Origin: a virus
Direction: 5' to 3' (one strand)
DNA: 25,242 nt
IMG/VR virus record: IMGVR_UViG_3300015265_000017
Location: 1 to 25,242 of that record
The notes beneath the pieces were generated by a model. That model was not told where the DNA came from, ran no database searches, and was given only the letters and a program-made list of their open reading frames with translations. This document shows positions 2,333 through 18,176 of the stretch, piece by piece (positions within the stretch are counted from its first letter, which is position 1; every line of letters starts with the position of its first letter). The translations under genes were made by a program, and so were the position numbers.

Positions 2333-2837
2333 AGTGTTGCAGTTCCTTCACGTAAGCCTGGCACGCTTGCAGCGCGATCAACCCCCGGTCGCCGGTGTCG
2401 GTGATGGCGATAATTCGTTGAGCATGCGCCGGGTCAAGTCGGGCGCGTACGGTTGCATGATCCACGCCGCCGGTGCCGGGGGTGGCTGGCACGTCGCAGC
2501 CTTTGGCAATGTCGGTTGCGTCGATGAGGACTGACAGCCGGACATCAGCAGTGGCAAGGCGATCGCGCAGACGATCCTGGTTTTTTTGGGCATCGGTCAT
2601 TTTCTCGAAGTGGGTTTTCTCGCTGGCAGCCAGCCGCTGCTCGAGCGCCAGCCGCTTGTCCTGCTCGGCCTGCTGGGCGGTCGCTGCAGCCTGGGTCATT
2701 TGATTGAGGGTTTCAGCATGCAGCTTGTCCTGCTCGGCAAGCTGCTGGCCGTATCGCCAAGCCTGAAACTGCCAGGCGCTGCCGAAAGCGGCGAGCACCA
2801 GTGCCAGCACACCGACAGTTCTCCACGGCACGGCCAT
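2331..2837 (-). CDS. Rz-like inner-membrane spanin (DUF2514-like)
   Basis: The 168-residue product has one N-terminal membrane helix (about residues 8-25), then a long Gln/Glu/Ala-rich coiled coil (30-100) and a Cys-containing C-terminal part (KGCDVPATPG ... LQACQAYV) typical of i-spanins in Pseudomonas phages. Rz proteins pair with an outer-membrane lipoprotein to fuse the two membranes in the last step of lysis. The start chosen (2837) gives a TGATG overlap with the endolysin stop codon; the longer open frame (to 2903) runs into the endolysin gene. The matching Rz1-like lipoprotein is nested in another frame. Confidence 0.82.
   Translation of the reverse strand: MAVPWRTVGVLALVLAAFGSAWQFQAWRYGQQLAEQDKLHAETLNQMTQAAATAQQAEQDKRLALEQRLAASEKTHFEKMTDAQKNQDRLRDRLATADVRLSVLIDATDIAKGCDVPATPGTGGVDHATVRARLDPAHAQRIIAITDTGDRGLIALQACQAYVKELQH
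2378..2593 (-). CDS. Rz1-like outer-membrane spanin lipoprotein, nested in Rz
   Basis: This 71-residue frame lies entirely inside the Rz gene in a different frame. It starts with a basic/hydrophobic signal (MPKKTRIVCAIALPLLMSGC) with lipobox LMSGC, predicting lipidation at Cys20. The mature part is short and Pro-rich (PPPAPAAW, SPSPTPATGG), as usual for o-spanins. The nested Rz/Rz1 arrangement is well known from lambda and many other phages. Its partner is the i-spanin encoded around it. Confidence 0.8.
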   Translation of the reverse strand: MPKKTRIVCAIALPLLMSGCQSSSTQPTLPKAATCQPPPAPAAWIMQPYAPDLTRRMLNELSPSPTPATGG

Positions 2838-3259
2838 CACGGCACATCCCTGAAGAAGACGTGACCGCCCAGCTTGAGAGTCTGCTTTGCCTTCGTCGAC
2901 CAAGCCGGTGCTTTGATGCTGGTTGCGTAGTAGTGCGTAGCGCCGCCGGTAGGATCCGGCACCTTACCGTCGATCACCTGGTCGGCAGCGATCCGACATT
3001 GCGCCAGCTCGCGAAACGGGATCTCCTTCACGCCGATCATGGACTGATAGTTCGGGTCGTTCTTGTTCCAGCAGCTGAACTGGTACGGCTTCTGGCAGAC
3101 GCCGGCATAGCCTTCGCCCCACCACGATTTGGTCTTTCCATCGAACACGCGGTTGCGGATGGTCCAGGCCACGGCGATTTGGCCGGCCAATGCTTCGCCG
3201 CGTGCCTCCCCCCAGAGCGTGCGAGCGAGGACGTCACGGTCTCTATCGGTTACAGGCAT
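2837..3259 (-). CDS. SleB-type cell wall hydrolase, probable endolysin
   Basis: The 140-residue product carries the signature of the SleB/CwlJ hydrolase family: ARTLWGEARGE near the N terminus with the putative catalytic Glu, AVAWTIRNRV, a KPYQFSCW segment, and the GGATHYYA motif near the C terminus. Enzymes of this family cleave peptidoglycan glycan strands. No signal peptide or SAR helix is seen, so export through the holin is expected. The start at 3259 has a strong GGAGA ribosome site; a longer open frame to 3364 has no support and collides with the upstream stub ORF. The stop overlaps the Rz start (TGATG), giving an endolysin-Rz-Rz1 cassette. The upstream 30-codon frame suggests this gene replaced a GH19-type endolysin. 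Confidence 0.85.
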   Translation of the reverse strand: MPVTDRDRDVLARTLWGEARGEALAGQIAVAWTIRNRVFDGKTKSWWGEGYAGVCQKPYQFSCWNKNDPNYQSMIGVKEIPFRELAQCRIAADQVIDGKVPDPTGGATHYYATSIKAPAWSTKAKQTLKLGGHVFFRDVP

Positions 3260-3342
3260 AACTTTTCTCCAAACACAAAAACGCCGACTTGTTTGCCGGC
3301 GTTCGGGAGTATCTGCAGCAACTGCTGCGCGGTGATGGGCAT
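3250..3342 (-). pseudogene. 30-codon remnant of a GH19-type endolysin N terminus
   Basis: A complete small frame with a good ribosome site (GGAGAG five bases before ATG) encodes 30 residues starting MPITAQQLLQILPNAG and continuing VGVFVFGEKLCL. The first 23 or so residues match the highly recognisable N terminus of the GH19 (chitinase-like) lytic enzymes of Pseudomonas phages and pyocins, which typically read M-IT-QQLLQILPNA--AGVFV. The rest of that enzyme is absent; the frame ends 10 bases inside the SleB-type hydrolase gene (overlap ATGCCTGTAA). It may now act as a translational leader for the new endolysin or simply be debris. The family match is from memory, not from a search. Confidence 0.65.
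3270..3303 (-). terminator. Weak hairpin/terminator-like element before the endolysin
   Basis: On the minus strand AACGCCG and CGGCGTT form a 7-bp stem with a 10-base loop, followed by TTTGTGTTT. It lies inside the stub ORF and ends about 10 bases before the endolysin start. It could reduce or time endolysin expression, but the T run is interrupted and the same bases encode the conserved stub peptide, so it may be incidental. Confidence 0.3.
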
Positions 3343-3360
3343 GTCTGCTCTCCGGGATAA

Positions 3361-4377
3361 TCACATGAACTGGATTTTCTTCAGGCCACCTGGCGTCATT
3401 GTGTAAAAACCACCGAAGGCATCGGCGAAAACACTGGCTAGACGGAATGAGAGTTGCGGGTCTTGTAGCTGTCCAAGCACTGCGGCAGCGGCCTTAAGAT
3501 GCCCCAAGTCGTTCCAGTGGACATCATCATGCATATCGTCAGGCAGCTTCAGCAGACTGGTAACATCTGCCATCAGTACCTTAAGCCCAGCCGCCTGCAA
3601 CTCTGCAACCATGGCAGAAAGCACGGCGTTGTATTGCGCTACGTTCGAGTCCGATCCGCCGCCGGTATACGCGATAGCGCGCGAAACACTCATGACACAA
3701 GCTGTAGCCTTCGGTTCGCAGTCAGAGAAGAAGCGGAAATAGGTCGGCCAGTACCCATCACTATTTACGATCTCAATCTCCACAACATGCAAGCCGTCAC
3801 CAAGGCCGCGAAACACTAGGCACATTGGGCCGATGGTTTTTCCCTTGCGCGTTGTAATGTCGCCGCCTGAGGAGTAAACGCCCTTACTTGCGCCATCAAC
3901 CTTTACTCTGAAGGTCGATGTGCTGCCGGCCTGCCTGATAAAGCCAACGGCAAGGTTTGGCCCATTTGAACCAAATACAGCTTTTGAACCAACTACAACA
4001 GATCCGTATGTTCCATAGGAGTAGGAGTTCGACCAAGTACCAGAAAAGGCTACCGCATTCGCCGGAGTAGCGAGTTTTGTCACCGCCGAGGACAGTACTG
4101 CATAAGCGCGCATGGCATCCACGTAACAATTACGCTTGTTCGCGTCCATCAGGTACATGGCATGATCATTGGCGCCGAACCCGATCAGCGTAGTATCCCC
4201 ACACTCGAAGTTCTGGGCGTAGAACGACGCTTCCATGTCCATCGCCATGTGGCCTGGTACCGAAAGGTTTGTAATCGGCAAGCAAAGCGCGGCGCTGATC
4301 CGCGATACATATCCATTCGCCGCGATAGACGCCGCGGCGCCTGACATGATCGAGTCACCAAACGCGCGGATTGTCAT
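3361..4377 (-). CDS. SGNH/GDSL-family hydrolase, probable tail-associated esterase
   Basis: The 338-residue protein has all SGNH esterase blocks: FGDS (residues 6-9, nucleophile Ser9), a Gly at the block II region, FGAND (67-71, Asn70) and DDVH (284-287, Asp/His pair). A Ser/Gly/Thr-rich beta-type insertion of about 120 residues sits between blocks III and V and may bind carbohydrate. There is no signal peptide. Position between the tail-fibre assembly gene and the endolysin suggests a virion-borne enzyme, for example one that deacetylates the receptor polysaccharide, rather than a host enzyme. It follows the fibre assembly gene directly. Substrate is unknown; cargo esterase is the alternative. 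Confidence 0.82.
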   Translation of the reverse strand: MTIRAFGDSIMSGAAASIAANGYVSRISAALCLPITNLSVPGHMAMDMEASFYAQNFECGDTTLIGFGANDHAMYLMDANKRNCYVDAMRAYAVLSSAVTKLATPANAVAFSGTWSNSYSYGTYGSVVVGSKAVFGSNGPNLAVGFIRQAGSTSTFRVKVDGASKGVYSSGGDITTRKGKTIGPMCLVFRGLGDGLHVVEIEIVNSDGYWPTYFRFFSDCEPKATACVMSVSRAIAYTGGGSDSNVAQYNAVLSAMVAELQAAGLKVLMADVTSLLKLPDDMHDDVHWNDLGHLKAAAAVLGQLQDPQLSFRLASVFADAFGGFYTMTPGGLKKIQFM

Positions 4378-10620: not shown

Positions 10621-12375
10621 TTATGGGGCCATCATCGAATAGCCGATATCGGTGTCGAAGGTTGCGCCCTGACTTCCCTCGGTTTTCACCTTTGAGCCTG
10701 CAGGCACATTGTTCAGGTCGACCTGCACCCTCACCGCCTGTGGCGGTGGTGCAATTTGCTGAGCGGCATCCCGCCCAATCTGGGCCGCACGACGACCGAG
10801 GTCTGTGTTTGCTGCGGCTGTGCCGGGCGCCGACAGAGTACTTTTAGGACTGCCAGTACCAACTCCCGACAGAGTACTTTCGGGGCTGCTGGTACCGCCC
10901 GCCGGCGCGGTGCCTTGCTCAATGGATACGCTAGCCCCATCAATCCCCAACAGTTCCTTGGCCCAATCAGGCAATCCGTTTTTTATAGCGGAAACTGCTG
11001 CGGTGATTTTCTCGCCAAGGATCGCCCCGAGATCCCAGCCAGTCAGATACTTAATGAGACCGTTAAAGGCCTCCATCATCAGCCTGACAGGGTTGTATTC
11101 CTGCCATACCTTCAAGATGCCATTGATGATCCCGTCAGAGAATGCGGCTTTAACGCGCCCCCACTTATCCTCGAAGAACTTCGCAATTGCGTCCCAGTTT
11201 TTGTAAACGATATAGGCGGCGCCTGCGATCGCCACTACAGCGGCAAGGAACCAGCCCACCGGGGTCAAGGTAATTGCCACGCCCAAGCCTTTCAAAGCCA
11301 CTGCGAGATTCAGGACCGCCATCACCAAACCACCGCCGATGTACAGACCCAGAGCAGTGAAGATGAGGTTGGCTGCCCCGAAGGTGTCCGACAGCGACTG
11401 AAAAACATCGATTACAGGCTGCACGCGATCATGCAGGTCACCCAGAAAACCGGTGACCTTCTCTATATTTTCGGGCAGGTTCTCAGCGAACGACGCTGCA
11501 AACGCCTCGATCTGTGGCCGGTATTTCACGATGGTTTCGATCAGTTGAGCACCAAGCTTGTTCAACTGAGGAACCAGGGCGCTACCGATGCTATTGCCGA
11601 CGCCGGTCAATGCTGCATGAATCGTGTCGAGCGTATCGCCGAAGGCTTCACCCTCACGCACAGCATCATCGGAAATGACCAGGCCGAGGCGGCGAGCCTC
11701 GTCCGACATTTCTTTAAGTCCTGCGCTACCGCCACGAATCAGGGGCAGCAACTCGGTGGCGCTTTTACCGAAGATCTTCACGGCGGCCTGCGCCTGCAGC
11801 GAGGGATCTTTGATCTTCGAAATGCGATCGACAAAAGTGTCGAACAGCGCGTCAGAACTTTTCAGTTTTCCGGACGCGTCCTTGATGTTGATGCCAAGCC
11901 CTTTGAACATTTCCTTAAGTTCTTTAGAGCCGGCCGTGGCTGCACCAACGTTGATCTGCATCTTCTGTAAGGCACCACCCAGCGTTTCCGCCGACGACCC
12001 CGTCAGCTTTGCCGCAAAGCCCAGCTCCTGGAATCGTTCGCGGCTGATACCGGTACGTTCGGCGGTATCGCCGATTGCGCCTGTCGCGTCAGCGAACCCT
12101 TGGAAAAACAGGTTCAATGCTGCACCTGTAATGCCGAGTGTCGCGCCAAGCCCAAGCAATCTCTTGGTGCTGGACGAAACCGCATTACCAATTCCGCCAA
12201 TGGCGCTGCCAACACCTTTCAAACTGTTGGTGAAGACTGGCAGCCCAACCCGATCAAGCGCCCCGGTGATGCCGGCACTTGCCGCCTTGACCTTGCCAAA
12301 GATTCCTCGCAAAGGAGCAGTGACCCGATCAACAGCCTTGATGATTAAGCTTAGGGAGTATCCTTTGTCTGCCAT
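10621..12375 (-). CDS. Tape measure protein
   Basis: The 584-residue product is a typical tape measure protein: an N terminus [19 protein letters not shown], then long Ala/Gly/Leu-rich helical and hydrophobic stretches, including two strongly hydrophobic segments near residues 340-400. It sets tail length and is probably ejected with the DNA. The moderate length implies a rather short contractile tail. Near residue 500 there is a P/S/T-rich linker with a 12-residue repeat (ESTLSGVGT / KSTLSAPGT). The start overlaps the end of the frameshifted chaperone frame by 25 bases, the usual chaperone/tape-measure order. Confidence 0.93.
10830..10880. repeat. Short direct repeat inside the tape measure gene
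   Basis: The 15-mer CCGACAGAGTACTTT occurs at 10830-10844 and 10866-10880, a 36-base period that gives two 12-residue units in the linker. It keeps the reading frame and looks like a small in-frame duplication. Confidence 0.8.
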
Positions 12376-12778
12376 TCAACCCATTCCTCGGTGCGCTCAA
12401 GCCACCAGTTCAGTTCCTCGAAATCCATTTCCATGACTTCCGATGGCTGAACACTCATGACCTTGACGACGACAGTCACTCCTGACTGCCACCCCCGAGG
12501 TGCTTCAGCAAAAAATCGCGAGCTTCCTGAATGACGGCGGCCTGGTCGTCCTCGCTTAACTCTTCAATGAGTGCCGGCGGATGGCCGATCATCTTCGCGC
12601 CGAGATCAATCAGCGTGGCGAAGTCAATGTCGACCCCGCCGCTACCCTTGCCGTCAGAGGTGACGCGCAGCGCATGGCCACGCAGGTACTTCAGCTTGCG
12701 GGTGACGGTCAGTTCGCTGAACGTGTCTTTGCCGAACGTGGCCTGCTCTACCAGTTGAATCGTTTTTTCCTTTGCCAT
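12351..12778 (-). CDS. Frameshifted tail assembly chaperone (gpE+E'-like product)
   Basis: This is the predicted -1 frameshift product. The chaperone is read in frame 0 for 90 codons, slips at T_TTT_TTG (12509-12515), then continues for 52 codons with no stop until TAA at 12351. The extension ends [18 protein letters not shown], closely like the P2 E' / gpE extension (LNWWLER type), which is the strongest evidence that the second frame is coding. Predicted length is 142 residues. In P2 and Mu, both forms are needed for tail assembly around the tape measure. The extension could also be made from ATG at 12434 or 12458, but neither has a good ribosome site. Confidence 0.8.
12476..12778 (-). CDS. 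Tail assembly chaperone, short form (Mu gp41-like)
   Basis: The 100-residue protein ([34 protein letters not shown], then [27 protein letters not shown]) matches the phage tail assembly chaperone family found between tail tube and tape measure in Mu- and P2-like phages. It is a scaffold for tail assembly and is not expected in the virion. Its start overlaps the tube stop (TAATG). The frame-0 product ends with [11 protein letters not shown] just after the slippery site. Confidence 0.88.
   Translation of the reverse strand: MAKEKTIQLVEQATFGKDTFSELTVTRKLKYLRGHALRVTSDGKGSGGVDIDFATLIDLGAKMIGHPPALIEELSEDDQAAVIQEARDFLLKHLGGGSQE
12509..12515 (-). promoter_or_regulatory. Programmed -1 frameshift slippery site
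   Basis: The minus-strand heptamer T_TTT_TTG is in register with the chaperone frame (gaT TTT TTG), so both tRNAs can re-pair one base back. It fits the X_XXY_YYZ rule and lies 10 codons before the frame-0 stop. The -1 frame beyond it is open for 52 codons and ends in a gpE-like sequence. Confidence 0.78.
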
Positions 12779-13146
12779 TACGCGACTTCCTCGGCAGACA
12801 TGCCTTCAAAACGGCAAGCAATGTTGCCTTCTTCAGTGTTGCCGGTGCCGTCGCCGGCGTACCAGGCCTCACTCAGGGTGATGACCTTGCCGTTGGCGAG
12901 TTCCAGCGTGATGGTAGCTTCGTCGAGCGTGACCAGATCCTCGAGGCTGAGCTCGTTGCGGTCAGTGATCTCTCCTTCAACGAAAGGAATCTGAGGGGTT
13001 TCTTTGTAGCCGTGTACGGTGTCGGCGCCGATAACGCCTTCACGCTTCGGCTTGCCGAGGTTGTAAGTAAAGTTGCCCTTGGCGAAGTAAATGTCGCCGT
13101 TGACCTTCAAGGCGATGGTGCCGCCAATACGGTTTTTGCCTGCCAT
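12778..13146 (-). CDS. Tail tube protein (Mu gpM-like)
   Basis: The 122-residue protein starts NRIGGTIALKVNGDIYFAKGNFTYNLG and matches the Mu-type tail tube family in length, position and this N-terminal beta pattern. It forms the inner tube inside the sheath. The start has a strong AGGAGA ribosome site six bases upstream, fitting a highly expressed virion protein. It follows the sheath gene after 24 bases. Confidence 0.92.
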   Translation of the reverse strand: MAGKNRIGGTIALKVNGDIYFAKGNFTYNLGKPKREGVIGADTVHGYKETPQIPFVEGEITDRNELSLEDLVTLDEATITLELANGKVITLSEAWYAGDGTGNTEEGNIACRFEGMSAEEVA

Positions 13147-16166: not shown

Positions 16167-18176
16167 TTACGCGCCTGGGTTTTTGTAAGCGCCGCGGTAA
16201 TCGATCCAGCCCGCGCCGAACACCAGACGCGCCTTGATCTCCATGCCGTCGACTTCGAAGCCTTCGCGGGTCTCAGTGAAGACGCCTTGCTCACCTTCAA
16301 GGTAGGCGTATTCGAAAGTGTCGATCGAGCCCGGCGCGGCGAACAGGTACCACTGATTGCCGGTGATCCGCGCGTCAACGATGACGGTGAGTGAAGCGTT
16401 GCGAACATCGTTGATGTCCGCATTCTTGGCCGGCACGTAGTTGGAACTCGTGAACTGGTAGGCCTCCAGTTCCTTATCCGGACCGACAACCAGAAACTCT
16501 GGAGACAGGTTGAGGAACTCACCAGCCTTGGACTTCTGCTTGCGCAGCGCGGATCGGGCAGCGGCCAGGGTGGTGGTGTTGACCGCACCACCACTCGCGG
16601 CGACGTTGCCGTGGCTGGCGTCGTAAAACGGAACACCGTCGGTGAAGTTCGGGTTGCCCAGCAGCAGCGCCCACACCACGTTGGATTCCGTGGCAGCGGC
16701 CGCGTTGCCGAGTGCAGCAGGGATTCGAGTCAAAGCACCGAGGTCATCGTTCACGATGGTTTCCCAGGTGATAGCGATGATCTTACCGAACTTGGCGACC
16801 TTGATCGGCGCTCCGTCTTCGGACAGCGTGCCGTACTTGTACTCGCCGTGTTCTTTGACCTGCTCCAGCGCAGCGATGTCGCCCAGCGCGGCGCGCGTCA
16901 CGGCGCGGAAGTCTGGCACAGTGGTTTGGCGACCCAGCGGACGCCAGGTTTGCGGAGCGTTGGTGTACGCGTCACGCAGGGTGCGATTGACGGTACTGCC
17001 CAGCAGCAGCGGGAAATCACTGGTGGAGTGCATACCGGCAGCTCGAACAGCCTGACGATCGCAGCCCAGCGCAGCACGGGCCAGTTCCTGTGGGGTCATG
17101 CCGCGAGCGTTACCGCCAGCCATCTCGACGAACTCGCGAGCCATATCAACCAGGCGCATACCGCGGAACTCGCGGCCGGCTTCTTCCAGCTTTACGGTGG
17201 TATCGCAGCGGTGCAGTAAGGCATTCTGCATCGCAGAGCGCTTGGCGTTCAGGATGGCGACATCCTGTCCACCGTTAACAGTGGTTGGCTGGCTGCTGCG
17301 GGTTTGTGGCTGATCCTTGTTCTGGCGCTCAGCCACGGCATCAATCAGCGCGGCGCTCGCATCGCTCACGGAAACACCGCGAGCGATCAAGTCCTCGACT
17401 ATGGCTTCGTCATCGAGGCCAACCTTGCGGGCCATGGTGCGGATGGTCAGGCTGCGCTTACGCTCCTCTTCAGCCGACTCACGGCGAAGTTTCTCGTCGG
17501 CCGCGCGCTTCTCTTCTTCGGTCATTGCAACTTCCTCTTGGATAATAGGCACGGCGGCCGGTTCTACGATCGGCTCTACCGCCGACCGAACTTCAAAAAC
17601 TGTGGGGAATCGACGGCCCGTGTATTCGGCCGGGGTCGCGGCACTGCGGATATTGGCGCCATCGTCGAAGGCAATCGGCACCACCGAAAGCTCCAACGGC
17701 TCCCAGTCCACAGCCCGGTAAGTTGGAAGCTTTTCTTCGCTGTCTTCCGTGATCTGGTACCGGTGCACGACGTACTTGACGCTGATCTTTCGAAGAATTT
17801 TGTCTTGGACGTCTTGAAAGATTTTTTCAGCGTCATCGCGCTTGCTAAATCGAACGAGCGCGTGACCTTGCTCGCCTTCGAGCCAGGCGCGCTCAACAAC
17901 ACCAATAACGTCACCCAAGTCATCACACTTGTGGCTATTGAGAAGAGGAGCGCCATTGTTCAGCCTGTCCATTCGAACGGCTTCTGGACTAACCTCCAGC
18001 TCCTCCATGTAGCTGCCAACGTCCCAGTTCCATCGCGGCCCTTTGGCGCCGGTAGTCCAAGTCAGCTCGACGGTACGGGCTTCTACATCAATCGAGCCAT
18101 CGCGCACAGCAGCGCGCAGGCTCAGCACCGGAGTTTCATGGGTCTTGTTCGTCGTCGCCTGGTTCGGAATTGGCAT
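16167..18176 (-). CDS. Fused prohead protease, scaffold and major capsid protein
   Basis: The 669-residue product combines three functions. Residues 1-200 are an HK97-type prohead protease (S78/U35-like): GAPLLNSHK with catalytic His82 and RKISVKY with Ser132, then the WEPLELSVVPIAFD motif. Residues 210-300 are highly charged and helical (EEEKRAADEKLRRESAEEE), like a scaffolding/delta domain. From about 370 to the end is a Mu gpT-like capsid shell (RDAYTNAPQTWRPLGR, GKIIAITWETIVNDDLGAL, NLSPEFLVVGP). The protease would cut itself free during head maturation; cleavage probably occurs before the capsid core near residue 360. The start overlaps the portal gene by 41 bases. Confidence 0.88.
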   Translation of the reverse strand: MPIPNQATTNKTHETPVLSLRAAVRDGSIDVEARTVELTWTTGAKGPRWNWDVGSYMEELEVSPEAVRMDRLNNGAPLLNSHKCDDLGDVIGVVERAWLEGEQGHALVRFSKRDDAEKIFQDVQDKILRKISVKYVVHRYQITEDSEEKLPTYRAVDWEPLELSVVPIAFDDGANIRSAATPAEYTGRRFPTVFEVRSAVEPIVEPAAVPIIQEEVAMTEEEKRAADEKLRRESAEEERKRSLTIRTMARKVGLDDEAIVEDLIARGVSVSDASAALIDAVAERQNKDQPQTRSSQPTTVNGGQDVAILNAKRSAMQNALLHRCDTTVKLEEAGREFRGMRLVDMAREFVEMAGGNARGMTPQELARAALGCDRQAVRAAGMHSTSDFPLLLGSTVNRTLRDAYTNAPQTWRPLGRQTTVPDFRAVTRAALGDIAALEQVKEHGEYKYGTLSEDGAPIKVAKFGKIIAITWETIVNDDLGALTRIPAALGNAAAATESNVVWALLLGNPNFTDGVPFYDASHGNVAASGGAVNTTTLAAARSALRKQKSKAGEFLNLSPEFLVVGPDKELEAYQFTSSNYVPAKNADINDVRNASLTVIVDARITGNQWYLFAAPGSIDTFEYAYLEGEQGVFTETREGFEVDGMEIKARLVFGAGWIDYRGAYKNPGA

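Follow-up and report, generated by a model that had tools for sequence, protein, structure and literature searches.

Known tail chaperone frameshifts and the present locus

Programmed -1 frameshifting in tail assembly chaperone genes is a textbook mechanism that has been known in phages P2 and lambda for decades. The E and E+E' genes of P2, part of the FETUD operon, were reportedly described by Christie et al. in 2002, and the P2 record contains the heptamer TTTTTTG with an annotated shift. The slippery sequence of lambda, a siphophage, is a different one. In P2, the E and E+E' products comprise 91 and 142 aa, and P2 and its relatives have no structure downstream of the site (PMC3091744). Lambda gpG and gpGT form a two-product chaperone made by a -1 frameshift in a gene between those for the tail tube and the tape measure (PMC5009743). 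The shift in Mu gp41 is reported to be -2 (PMC2628397; PMC5009743), and the Mu-like phage KS10 reportedly has no recognisable shift (PMC2628397).

The window considered here is an entire virus record of 25,242 bases in which the structural genes, like all features described below, are encoded on the minus strand. Its tail assembly chaperone gene very probably contains a programmed -1 ribosomal frameshift of the P2 type, since synonymous sites are constrained at a slippery heptamer, the -1 frame is under purifying selection before any internal start, and the two parts of the product are homologous to gpE and gpE'. These comparisons support frameshifting, which a sequence-only reading of the same DNA had offered as the best explanation. 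The locus resembles P2 in the heptamer T_TTT_TTG, the direction of the predicted shift, the position of the site just before the tape-measure gene and the length of the extended product (142 aa). It is also like P2 in that the extension runs briefly into the tape-measure gene and a downstream stimulatory structure is lacking, and the proteins are similar in both halves. However, sequence identity is low, the 0-frame product has 100 aa rather than the 91 aa of P2, and the adjacent tail genes are Mu-like. With Mu the locus shares its place in the cassette (sheath, tube, chaperone, tape measure, DNA circularisation protein), but the extension lies in the -2 (+1) frame in Mu and in the -1 frame here, and the scan that finds the -1 heptamer in the window finds none in Mu gp41. 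The likeness to lambda, likewise a two-product -1 frameshift chaperone between tail tube and tape measure, is one of arrangement.

The chaperone gene, its neighbours and its homologues

The 0-frame chaperone ORF extends from an ATG at 12778 to a stop at 12476 (minus strand) and encodes the gpE-like short product. The ATG is preceded by the Shine-Dalgarno (SD) sequence GAGGAAG and shares bases with the stop codon of the preceding gene (TAATG). That gene, on the 5' side, encodes the tail tube, or major tail protein (12778..13146, minus; PF10618 Tail_tube, E 7.5e-36), while the tape-measure gene lies on the 3' side (10621..12375, minus; PF10145 PhageMin_Tail, E 9.3e-10). The Pfam matches of the neighbours thus give the order tube, chaperone, tape measure, as for the E / E+E' genes of P2-type phages. 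Other neighbours match DNA_circ_N, a gp44/GpP-like baseplate hub and a sheath protein, and the tail genes around the chaperone constitute a Mu-type contractile tail cassette.

The homology of the chaperone is clearer in its family than in the window itself. PF10109 (E, 41 or 14) is matched by 15 of 20 family members (best E 2.3e-5), whereas the 0-frame protein of the window has no match. Similarly, 13 of 17 members match PF06528 (Phage_P2_GpE; best E 3.1e-4), while the 52-residue extension of the window gives E 0.18, which falls short of the cut-off. When family profiles were aligned to the P2 proteins with hhalign, each as a single comparison and not a database search, the 0-frame family aligned with gpE (26% identity over 43 residues, E 4.1e-6) and the extension family with gpE' (31% over 26 residues, E 4.2e-5). 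The predicted structure of the 0-frame protein is good (pLDDT 87). Its best named match in BFVD is a 'Tape measure chaperone' of Burkholderia phage Mica (probability 0.99, TM-score 0.59), and the BFVD models that resemble its fold are named tape measure chaperone or tail assembly chaperone, with weak E-values; Foldseek found no match for it in the PDB.

Conservation of the slippery site

The heptamer T_TTT_TTG, the predicted -1 shift site, lies at 12515-12509 (minus), where it is in register with the 0-frame codons GAT TTT TTG, as had been read from the sequence. Relatives were gathered first with the 0-frame protein and again with residues 1-84 alone, which kept the slip region out of the second query. 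The total came to 104 loci, many of which repeat a contig already collected; ten lie within genomes of Pseudomonas (among them P. viridiflava, P. cedrina and P. abietaniphila), and L043 is carried by P. cedrina DSM 17516. One contig supplies two loci that stop short of the full extension, and the remainder together with the window make up 62 distinct sequences, which form 22 clusters at 90% identity and have a minimum pairwise nucleotide identity of 54%. A tblastn search returned no cultured phage with this chaperone or extension, and no plasmid carrying the locus was found.

All 105 sequences (the 104 related loci and the window) have TTTTTT[G/A] at this position and in register. Loss of the heptamer in relatives that keep the extension had been named as an outcome that would refute the proposal, and the proposal survived this check: all 62 distinct sequences have the -1 extension and all retain the heptamer. 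The six T are invariant, and the last base (Z) is G in 54 sequences and A in 8. On a FastTree phylogeny, parsimony assigns no change to the six T columns and a single one, between G and A, to the Z column. By comparison, every one of the 81 upstream 0-frame wobble columns changes on the same tree, ten times on average. At these loci TTT serves for only 24% of Phe codons and TTG or TTA for 17% of Leu codons; the slip codons are thus held at less-used synonyms. Under local codon usage, the D-F-L triplet would be written GAT TTT TTR about 1.6% of the time, so that the presence of the site in every sequence exceeds chance. The sole variation seen at the site is T_TTT_TTA, confined to one sublineage (L017-L022, L024, L025, L036; locus position 1764).

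The same site is present, with no frameshift annotated, in at least two public phage records. Bordetella phage PY223 (L106, PP230461.1, 4774) and Chromohalobacter phage YPCBV-1 (L107, OP380511.1, 6114) both have a Mu-like cassette, T_TTT_TTG and an open -1 extension, which in YPCBV-1 reads FFAEAPSDW... The junction peptide suggested from the sequence of the window, ARDFFAEAPR, needs correction, as its fully tryptic form is DFFAEAPR; the corresponding 0-frame peptide is DFLLK.

The -1 frame and alternative explanations

The gpE'-like extension occupies 12351..12509 (minus). As the sequence-only reading had stated, the -1 frame is open for 52 codons, up to a stop at 12353-12351, and a -1 slip would give a product of 142 aa in total. 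The extension ends inside the tape-measure gene, overlapping its start by 25 bases. The -1 frame is free of stops in each of the 62 distinct sequences. Beyond the 0-frame stop, parsimony gives 1.3, 1.1 and 5.1 changes per column at the first, second and third -1 codon positions, and the pN/pS of the extension is 0.22 in the -1 frame versus 1.27 and 1.68 in the other two. The extension is therefore under strong purifying selection in that frame and in no other. From the slip to the 0-frame stop, a short overlap of 30 bases that serves both readings, pN/pS is 0.72 for the -1 frame versus 1.18 for the 0 frame, so that the -1 reading is already constrained upstream of any candidate internal start. 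In one relative (L028, on the contig that also gave L081), a change of the GTG/TGA overlap to GTC has shifted the 0-frame stop 18 bases downstream and lengthened the product to 106 aa; the length of its -1 extension is unchanged.

This upstream constraint bears on the possibility that the extension is translated separately as a small protein, by termination-reinitiation at a GTG at 12479 or by internal initiation at an ATG at 12458. The second-frame starts had been held to lack ribosome sites, a claim that stands for the ATG, where only AAGG is present, two bases away, but fails for the GTG. The latter (12477..12479, minus) overlaps the 0-frame stop (GTGA), is the only plausible reinitiation start and, in the window, is preceded by an SD-like stretch, GGGGGUGG (duplex -9.9 kcal/mol). 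Reinitiation is therefore disfavoured by comparison and not by the local sequence: the codon is GTG in only 28 of the 62 distinct sequences, elsewhere being mostly GTA and rarely ATA, GTC or CTG, and reinitiation at GTGA was rejected for this non-conservation. The ATG is more widespread (97% of distinct sequences), but its AAGG is a mere two bases away, and L033 and L092 have neither the GTG nor the ATG. Initiation at either codon would also leave unexplained the invariant T6 and the -1-frame constraint upstream of them, and a separate protein is accordingly very improbable.

Bacterial transcriptional slippage usually needs about nine bases in known cases, so that a run of six T is short. A fused product arising from slippage of RNA polymerase on the T6, and not of the ribosome, would be compatible with the invariance of the homopolymer, but none of the 62 distinct sequences has a longer run, and in each the run is completed by a Leu codon, TTG or TTA, as expected for tandem slippage on X_XXY_YYZ. 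Moreover, the same site in P2 has been attributed to ribosomal frameshifting (PMC3091744), and polymerase slippage appears slightly less probable still than a separate protein. That the open -1 frame is a functionless chance overlap is refuted by its pN/pS of 0.22: an open frame of 52 codons is by itself not rare in GC-rich DNA, but selection confined to the -1 frame, a conserved length and end, and homology to gpE' leave this reading next to no credibility.

Candidate stimulators

In the alignment of relatives, no conserved stimulatory RNA structure was found, and RNAalifold gave no compensatory pair. Downstream folding in single sequences is scattered (mean z -0.8, range -3.2 to +1.2). The window does have a downstream fold (z -1.1), but it is unshared and shows no compensatory change, and a stimulatory pseudoknot or hairpin was rejected. 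About 8 bases upstream of the slip there is an SD-like stretch, with a mean duplex energy of -5.8 kcal/mol versus -3.0 kcal/mol elsewhere in the gene. However, its wobble positions are unconstrained (8 changes at -9), so that the stretch is accounted for by Q/G-E-A codons, and its role as a 5' stimulator was likewise rejected. The lack of a conserved stimulator agrees with the report on P2 (PMC3091744) and with a review according to which some shifts of tailed phages seem to need none (PMC5009743).

Proposed mechanism and significance

In the ribosomal frameshift favoured here, most ribosomes would terminate at 12476 and release the 100-aa chaperone. A minority would slip back by one base on T_TTT_TTG, the peptidyl-tRNA-Phe re-pairing from TTT to TTT and the aminoacyl-tRNA-Leu from TTG to TTT, and would go on to make the 142-aa chaperone with its gpE'-like tail. 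If the analogy with lambda gpG/gpGT holds, the short form would coat the tape-measure protein and the extended form would recruit tail tube subunits, so that the ratio of short to long product would govern tail assembly.

Recognition of the shift corrects the gene models of a widespread family of Pseudomonas prophages, in which simple gene callers miss the long chaperone. With both G and A at the last base of the site and no conserved stimulators, the 62 sequences also form a tidy set for comparative work. The presence of a P2-type E/E' unit with a -1 T6G site in a Mu-type cassette might reflect a switch in the direction of the shift, or an exchange of the chaperone unit, among Mu-like tails, with the T_TTT_TTA sublineage providing a natural test of the Z base; this broader interpretation is less likely than not.

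Other genes of the window

Outside the tail cassette, the window contains a Mu-like gpT capsid match and a GpA terminase. The capsid matches (Phage_capsid_4, Mu-like gpT) fall in the C-terminal half of a 669-aa ORF (16167-18176, minus), and the N-terminal half of this ORF could be a fused protease domain like that in the PY223 gene annotated ClpP / gpT. An ORF for an Rz1-like lipoprotein (2378-2593, minus) lies within that of Rz (2331-2903, minus) in a different frame; both have Pfam scores just under the cut-offs. These ORFs adjoin a Hydrolase_2 cell wall hydrolase (2837-3364, minus), and the lysis genes are flanked by an Acyl_transf_3 acyltransferase and a GDSL/SGNH-type hydrolase (763-2166 and 3361-4377, minus), which possibly serve in O-antigen modification or removal.
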